The notes under the pieces: generated by a model
Told to the model about the DNA's origin: nothing
The model's database searches: none
What the model saw: the letters and a program-made list of their open reading frames with translations, nothing else
Made by a program: the position numbers and the translations under genes
Shown here: positions 7,433 to 7,587 of the stretch, in pieces
Layout of the letters: each line of letters opens with the position of its first letter
Position numbering within the stretch: position 1 is the first letter of the stretch
Source of the DNA: Oscillospiraceae bacterium
GTDB taxonomy: Bacteria; Bacillota_A; Clostridia; Oscillospirales; Oscillospiraceae
Assembly (NCBI GenBank): GCA_017381835.1
Contig: JAFOBK010000220.1
Coordinates: 1-11,538 of the forward strand
Reading direction: 5' to 3'
DNA: 11,538 nt

Positions 7433-7447
7433 CCGGTGTTTCCTCCT

Positions 7448-7483
7448 TTAAAGTAGTAATAGAAGTACTCGCACCGGGTTCAT
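7448..7483 (-). CDS. Candidate leader peptide 2 of mgtE, leucine-run mini-ORF
   Basis: This 11-codon frame encodes MNPVRVLLLLL and ends TAA at 7448-7450. The last five sense codons are CTT, CTA, TTA, CTA and CTT, whereas genes in this window use CTG predominantly. Its start lies 4 nt after the stop of leader frame 1, with no good ribosome binding site of its own, so it would be translated by reinitiation. Its stop directly abuts the AAAGGAGG of mgtE, and mgtE starts 15 nt later, so a ribosome halted or terminating here would cover the mgtE initiation region. The leucine run resembles attenuation leader peptides of leucine operons, but the gene downstream is a magnesium channel. Translation is inferred, not shown. 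Confidence 0.45.
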   Translation of the reverse strand: MNPVRVLLLLL

Positions 7484-7524
7484 CGTGTCAGGCGCACACC
7501 ATGGTCTGACTACTTCGACCCGGT
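7448..7524 (-). promoter_or_regulatory. mgtE leader with competing hairpins
   Basis: On the minus strand ACCGGGT (7518-7524) pairs with ACCCGGT (7473-7479), enclosing an inner GTCAG/CTGAC stem (7506-7510 with 7487-7491) that sits on the stop of leader frame 1. Alternatively AAGTAGT (7509-7515) pairs with ACTACTT (7451-7457), or GAAGTA with TACTTC (7462-7467). These cannot nest with the ACCGGGT stem, so they are mutually exclusive or pseudoknotted. The ACTACTT arm ends 3 nt before the mgtE ribosome binding core (7442-7447). There is no terminator T-run in the leader, so any control would be at translation or through Rho. Confidence 0.4.
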
Positions 7525-7550
7525 ATATTGCCACTACTGCCAGATTCCAT
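7488..7550 (-). CDS. Candidate leader peptide 1 of mgtE (20 codons)
   Basis: The frame starts ATG at 7550, with AGGAGG (7559-7564) 8 nt upstream, spacing as good as that of the major genes, and encodes a 20-residue peptide beginning MESGSSGNIPGR and ending TMVCA. It is serine/glycine rich and not acidic or proline rich like the enterobacterial MgtL peptide. It ends TGA, 4 nt before leader frame 2. A strong ribosome binding site this far from mgtE is hard to explain unless the frame is translated. I do not recognise the peptide. Confidence 0.5.
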   Translation of the reverse strand: MESGSSGNIPGRSSQTMVCA

Positions 7551-7587
7551 GGATGTTCCCTCCTTTTTCGCATAGTATCTTTATTGT

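Follow-up and report, generated by a model that had tools for sequence, protein, structure and literature searches.

The window analyzed here, a stretch of 11,538 nucleotides from an Oscillospiraceae bacterium (contig JAFOBK010000220.1), carries on its minus strand a gene for the Mg2+ transporter MgtE. This gene is preceded by a leader with a candidate promoter, two Shine-Dalgarno (SD) sequences and two short open reading frames (Table 1). The arrangement in which a short SD-led ORF, here termed uORF1, is located between a promoter and a Mg2+ importer gene corresponds to that of MgtL-type leaders. A first-pass annotation of this DNA had already listed the upstream AGGAGG, the frames of 20 and 11 codons and the stop codon adjoining the mgtE SD, all of which were found at the given positions on the minus strand, and its claim of a promoter before the leader agrees with promoter-like boxes that have 11 of 12 matches. 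The start codon of the second mini-ORF follows the uORF1 stop by 4 nt, and its TAA touches the AGGAGG of mgtE.

Table 1. Features of the mgtE leader region and of the predicted RNA pairings in the window
Feature	Coordinates	Strand	Remarks
Candidate promoter TTGACA-18-TAAAAT	7588..7617	-	TTGACA 7617-7612, 18 nt gap, TAAAAT 7593-7588; 11/12 box matches; RNA start expected at about 7581
uORF1 Shine-Dalgarno AGGAGG	7559..7564	-	sequence motif
uORF1, 20 codons, MESGSSGNIPGRSSQTMVCA	7488..7550	-	ATG 7550 to TGA 7488; conserved leader ORF
P1 5' strand, inside uORF1 codons 4-15	7506..7541	-	duplex and permutation tests
CGA (Arg), codon 12 of uORF1	7515..7517	-	near-invariant, in frame; predicted mgtE-closing ribosome position
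Switch strand, P1 partner of uORF1 codons	7461..7491	-	10 nt between 7461 and 7477 common with P3
Second mini-ORF MNPVRVLLLLL, 11 codons	7448..7483	-	ATG 7483 to TAA 7448; not conserved
P3 5' strand	7459..7477	-	predicted to pair with mgtE SD and bases before mgtE ATG (CCGGTG/CACCGG, CUUCU/AGGAG)
mgtE Shine-Dalgarno AGGAGG	7442..7447	-	predicted to be sequestered in P3
mgtE, Mg2+ transporter, 460 aa	6050..7432	-	ATG 7432; NCBIfam TIGR00400 466 bits (cut-off 233)

Two further features of the window were noted outside the leader. A dispersed intergenic repeat, GATTGCCACACCAGTGTGCGCACT, occurs in identical form at 4519-4555, in the gap separating ORF 3135-4451 from ORF 4619-5623, and at 7817-7912, upstream of mgtE. 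An acetyltransferase gene (7999-8553, plus strand) is divergent from mgtE, with models for arsinothricin/phosphinothricin N-acetyltransferases as its nearest matches, below their cut-offs.

The conservation of uORF1 was analyzed in a set of 81 loci, consisting of the window and the best 80 of at least 442 confirmed MgtE loci from an MgtE scan of genome contigs. By their record titles, the 80 loci derive mostly from metagenome-assembled Oscillospiraceae and other Clostridia as well as a few spirochaetes. A homologue of uORF1 following the pattern M-[DE]-[AST]-G-S-..-G-R precedes mgtE in 68 of the 81. In a scan for SD-led frames the uORF motif was recovered at 62 of the 81 mgtE loci versus 2 of 1,620 shuffled upstream regions, so that the conservation of the first frame exceeds chance. 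Residue 2 was aspartate or glutamate in 65 of 93 SD-led ORFs, compared to 82 of 918 in the shuffles. The 68 leaders were picked by their amino acid pattern at residues 2-5, and the first and second codon positions of this part are therefore conditioned. A DNA pattern that included the CGA codon brought a further 34 unique leaders, for a total of 102 after the removal of three duplicates. Promoter-like boxes were present within 170 nt 5' of the uORF in 91 of these 102 leaders, as judged by a loose pattern used without a shuffle control.

The 13 loci without the uORF (L004, L006, L010, L028, L030, L048, L067, L071, L072, L073, L078, L079 and L080) carry other leaders, with promoter-like boxes directly before the mgtE SD in L004, L006 and L010. 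MgtE of L004 and L010 is 77-78% identical to that of the window, while the uORF is missing and the whole leader is different. The loss of both frames from an otherwise conserved leader, which the first-pass annotation had named as the case that would speak against it, was thus not what these two relatives exhibited. Among 300 genomes of the same family, the DNA pattern matched in 61 at 71 places. Of the 47 places examined, 37 were located before a Mg2+ importer gene (35 mgtE, 2 mgtA) and ten were chance hits; a control with the reversed pattern matched in 2 of the 300 genomes, a figure that understates the noise given these ten chance hits. The stricter pattern used for a search of the phylum was absent from all 398 genomes drawn. 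This pattern fits 63 of the 102 leaders and 36 of the 68 in the first set, and it does not fit the window, so all that follows is that this precise form is not common across the phylum.

The usual uORF peptide begins with M-[DE]-[AST]-G-[SN]-[STN] and continues to G-R (or D-R, E-R), with the arginine at codon 11-14. An SD-like sequence precedes the frame in 98 of the 102 leaders, and for three of the remaining four (L053, L070 and L076) the extracted stretch ends there. Entropy at the third positions of codons 2, 3 and 4 amounted to 1.24, 1.83 and 1.59 bits, versus 0.08, 0.28 and 0.08 bits at the second positions, a contrast that is partly built in by the choice of the first leader set by amino acid pattern. 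Past codon 14 the peptide is variable in both sequence and length, with 20-42 codons overall. The end of the conserved part is marked by a CGA codon, which is in frame at codon 11-14 in 99 of the 102 leaders and in 65 of the 68 leaders of the first set, where CGA played no part in the selection. The spacing between ATG and CGA takes four values and corresponds to whole codons in 99 of 99 cases. CGA is a rare codon, accounting for 5.2% of 1,223 arginine codons in the mgtE genes, and the three leaders lacking it (L044, L075 and L076) are all from spirochaetes. Judged by sequence comparison, the short SD-led leader ORF before Mg2+ transporter genes is conserved at the amino acid level and hence as a coding sequence, as is expected for the leader ORF of a ribosome-gated attenuator.

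The leaders also share two long-range complementarities. In P1, codons 4-14 of the uORF are complementary to a strand located after the uORF stop and ahead of the mgtE SD (the switch strand). In P3 this strand can instead pair with the ribosome binding site of mgtE. Both were assessed in an alignment-free manner by comparing the duplexes formed by each leader's own halves with those of permuted, re-paired halves, a procedure that leaves some effect of relatedness. Over the 102 leaders the summed duplex values were -2652 for P1 (permuted -2167, sd 36; z -13.6) and -1521 for P3 (permuted -1217, sd 24; z -12.5). The window's own group of 25 leaders (P1 z -5.3, P3 z -7.6) and the mixed group E of 18 leaders (P1 z -5.3, P3 z -3.6) exhibited the same pattern. 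When taken singly, the subgroups B, C and D (10, 4 and 11 leaders) were not significant for P1, and neither were C and D for P3. Since P1 and P3 draw on the same strand, the two pairings are mutually exclusive. In 96 of the 102 leaders (long ones were dropped), a mean of 10.2 nt was common to P1 and P3 compared to 3.5 in shuffles, with 10 nt in the window, and at least three common nucleotides were present in 92 of the 96 versus 53% of the shuffles. The mgtE SD was paired in the P3 state in 94 of the 96 (98%), which is weak evidence in view of the 88% observed in shuffles. The uORF stop codon was located inside the hairpin enclosed by P1 in many individual leader folds.

The window on its own gave weak signals, with a z of -0.95 for the whole-leader fold, -1.8 for P1 against shuffles and -3.4 for P3. 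Two exclusive pairings, one hiding the main SD and the other using the leader ORF, were thus found across the leader set, whereas the window alone was indistinct from shuffles. For 22 leaders in a plain MAFFT alignment, RNAalifold returned only six pairs, none of them belonging to P1 or P3; this yield reflects that the downstream half of the leader is not aligned by sequence. The bases common to P1 and P3 in the window lie inside the second mini-ORF. A frame starting with ATG near the uORF stop was observed in 12 of the 102 leaders (43 when GTG and TTG starts are counted as well), and no common sequence was seen among these frames. As a functional gene the second mini-ORF was rejected, being without counterpart in relatives; it overlies the switch strand, of which it appears to be a side effect. 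The two coupled mini-ORFs of the first-pass annotation are accordingly reduced to one, the first being conserved and the second not above chance.

We further analyzed the effect of a translating ribosome in a folding model, in which a footprint was moved codon by codon along the uORF and the energy required to open the mgtE site was computed for 92 of the 102 leaders (long ones were dropped). In the free RNA this modeled cost averaged 7.6 kcal/mol. A footprint at codons 11-13, where the CGA is located, was predicted to add a mean of up to 4.5 kcal/mol, and from codon 19 onward the cost was near the free value again. When the stop codon occupied the A site or the P site, the modeled increase amounted to 0.6 and 1.1 kcal/mol, respectively. 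In 85-89% of the 92 leaders, footprints at codons 9-14 made opening of the mgtE site costlier by more than 0.5 kcal/mol. Because blocking any stretch removes pairing competitors, codons 4-16 of the uORF were shuffled as a control, and the rise at codon 12 then was 1.2 kcal/mol. The natural rise at this codon exceeded the mean of the leader's own shuffles in 80 of 92 leaders (p = 6e-15) and all six shuffles in 62 of 92 (13 expected). In the window alone, the rise of 3.3 kcal/mol was within the range of its own shuffles (0.75-5.5).

Taken together, we consider it probable that the conserved 20-codon leader ORF before mgtE works as a ribosome-gated RNA switch. According to the model, a ribosome over codons 9-14, most effectively near the CGA, would break P1 and allow P3 to form, which would close the mgtE site, while with no ribosome there, or with a ribosome near the stop codon, P1 would form and leave the mgtE site freer. 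Ribosomes reading the leader would thereby hold mgtE translation down, and their absence or early loss would release it. We infer that the signal is Mg2+, which would set a pause at the CGA. By analogy to MgtL, low Mg2+ may lead to early departure of the ribosome from the leader, such that mgtE would be on when Mg2+ is scarce. Leaders of this kind would constitute a new, MgtL-analogous family of ribosome-gated attenuators for Mg2+ importers, with the Mg2+ response and the mechanism being the putative part.

The first-pass annotation regarded the leader as standing in place of an M-box riboswitch. No Rfam family reached its gathering score in the window, and between 7300 and 8000 the sole match at E<=10 was to a plant-virus pseudoknot family (E 2.1), so that this covariance search agrees with the absence of an M-box (RF00380) from the window leader. 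A sequence-profile scan likewise found none in 92 of the 96 uORF leaders for which 300 nt or more of upstream sequence were available; the profile was built from eight M-boxes including the four detected, and may miss divergent M-boxes. In a covariance-model scan of 23 uORF loci, an M-box was matched in four. The replacement claim holds for the window and these 92 leaders, while in L096, L102, L110 and L120 an M-box is located directly upstream of the uORF, in L102 and L110 with a terminator-like hairpin after it. Where an M-box precedes the same module, the two would act as serial controls. In L102 and L120 the gene following the uORF is mgtA; despite being incomplete, the L120 gene scored 654 bits with NCBIfam TIGR01524 (cut-off 611), and the more incomplete L102 gene reached 526 bits, below this cut-off.

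Of 150 family genomes, 24 contained an M-box, one of them being that of L110. Among the other 23 loci, an SD-led uORF starting with M-[DE] followed the M-box in 14 and none did in nine. The starts of these M-box-linked uORFs include MDADP, MDGDP, MDPDG and MDSDG, and apart from the M-[DE] start they share little common sequence. Seven genes behind such uORFs were tested and comprised two of the corA type, two P-type cation ATPases, two mgtE and one encoding a PRC-barrel protein. In a phylum sample an M-box scored over the cut-off in 86 of 249 genomes, and an M-[DE] uORF was present behind it in 4 of 30 loci examined (L176, L177, L182 and L190), all 30 among the best-scoring. Individual M-box loci of note were L136 and L138, with an SD-led uORF starting with M-D-G-D before corA-type genes, and L157, in which the PRC-barrel protein (454-1053, plus strand) is an unusual neighbor behind an M-box and the uORF MDADPGNRSKTFE.

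A comparison with described systems revealed likenesses to several of them. In the MgtL model as outlined in PMC11282234, mgtA is off while the leader is translated and on when the ribosome leaves, and the peptide start EPDP, in which Glu2 and Asp4 matter, is ribosome-destabilizing. As far as that account goes, the leaders described here share with MgtL a short ORF before a Mg2+ importer gene and the proposed role of ribosome presence in deciding the mRNA conformation. They differ in being located mainly before mgtE rather than mgtA, in their peptide, and in that MgtL is reported there to work via Rho while P3 predicts control at the translation start. The window peptide (MESGSSGNIP) has Glu2 only and lacks the acidic pair, which the M-box-linked starts MDADP, MDGDP and MDPDG resemble more closely. 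Since the window type has the first acidic residue but not the second, an intrinsic destabilization in the style of MgtL is at most conjectural for it, and we class its leader as putative leader-ORF attenuation of a Mg2+ importer gene outside the MgtL family. Of the peptide-based parallel to MgtL put forward in the first-pass annotation, the conserved SD-led ORF before Mg2+ transporter genes fits, while the second frame found no support.

The M-box (ykoK) resembles these leaders in its location before mgtE, P-type ATPase and corA genes. Its combination with a short ORF has a counterpart in Mycobacterium tuberculosis, where according to the summary in PMC12810186 the pe20 M-box controls the conserved uORF rv1805A before genes needed at low Mg2+. 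Compared to the system as summarized there, the uORF described here mostly occurs without an M-box and contains the partner of the switch strand. The Thioalkalivibrio mgtE motif (SRC-65-1), a riboswitch candidate with 32 examples in one genus (PMC11109978), is likewise a structured leader before mgtE; the excerpted description places SD and AUG at the base of a large stem and mentions no uORF in that portion. A literature search of titles and abstract starts, which covered few subscription journals, did not retrieve a description of the uORF/mgtE leader.

The long-range pairing with two exclusive states and the location before transport genes would also fit a direct ion- or metabolite-binding riboswitch, in which an aptamer senses Mg2+ or another ligand and shifts the switch strand between P1 and P3 with the ORF being incidental, and the conserved GGCA and CGAAGT blocks in the window's group indeed resemble a structured core. 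We regard this as unlikely, as an incidental ORF does not agree with conservation at the amino acid level with variable synonymous sites, with spacing changes in whole codons only, or with the frequency of the SD-like sequence (98/102) and the in-frame CGA (99/102). Moreover, relatives behind M-boxes keep the M-[DE] start and little else. A translated ORF could also act with the opposite sign. Attenuators of the erm type combine a leader ORF with exclusive hairpins, one of which hides the main SD, and stalling turns erm on. If the nascent MDAGS..GR peptide arrested the ribosome and thereby opened the mgtE site under stress, the conserved N-terminal residues and the Gly-Arg at the CGA would be explained as a nascent-chain effect. 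In the folding model, however, stalling is predicted to turn mgtE off, given that arrest at codons 9-14 closes rather than opens the site in the large majority of leaders, and MDAGS and CGA are not at a fixed distance, with differences of up to three codons between leaders. This erm-like sign therefore appears quite unlikely.

The ribosome-gated switch at the translation start also has to be weighed against control of transcription, with uORF translation governing Rho-dependent or intrinsic termination as for MgtL and mgtA and the pairing at the ribosome binding site being secondary. The action of MgtL through Rho, as outlined in PMC11282234, is in favor of this, as are the group D leaders L057 and L061, in which TTATTTTT separates a CCTCC/GGAGG hairpin from the gene. 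On the other hand, the minus strand of the window leader showed no terminator-like site and P3 pairs the SD in nearly all leaders (an argument weakened by its frequency in shuffles), which makes this explanation distinctly improbable. The codons AGT, ATA and CGA are rare in the mgtE genes (4.9%, 7.6% and 5.2%) yet frequent in the uORF, and an amino acid attenuator would use such rare Ser, Ile and Arg codons to sense charged tRNA instead of Mg2+. The 37 of 47 examined places that have a recognized downstream gene and the M-box-linked loci checked lead to Mg2+ importers, P-type ATPases and in one case the PRC-barrel gene, with no amino acid gene among them, and we consider amino acid sensing very improbable.

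In a wider and more tentative reading, to which we give slightly less than even chances, the ribosome-gated leaders would represent an undescribed class of Mg2+-control leader peptides in Bacillota with the form M-[DE]-x-[GD]-S...GR and a fixed CGA. These would occur alone or behind M-boxes and before three unrelated families of Mg2+ importers, with the ribosome itself as the Mg2+ sensor, and would be convergent with enterobacterial MgtL while acting on the translation start. Dozens of related gut bacteria have kept the uORF. Since in Oscillospiraceae of the gut and their kin many mgtE genes are preceded by this leader and lack an M-box, the way in which they respond to Mg2+ calls for an explanation. 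A ribosome-gated leader ORF, if true, would be a direct and testable answer. It would also suggest that enterobacteria and Bacillota arrived separately at the same idea and would raise the issue of why M-box and leader ORF are sometimes stacked. The approximately 100 natural leader variants provide a set for asking how a translating ribosome reads the Mg2+ level.

Several minor observations were made during these searches. In L057 and L061, where TTATTTTT comes after the SD-sequestering hairpin and immediately ahead of the mgtE start, the hairpin may serve as a terminator as well. Four further pattern matches (spirochaete genomes, G191) were rejected: two were CorC-like protein starts, one was located within the frame of another protein and one was without an SD-led leader. 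CorC/CNNM-like proteins of two spirochaete genomes (L153, 1404-2690 on the minus strand, assigned by model search, and L154, assigned by eye) begin with MDDGSKPPL, which is near the uORF start M-[DE]-x-G-S.
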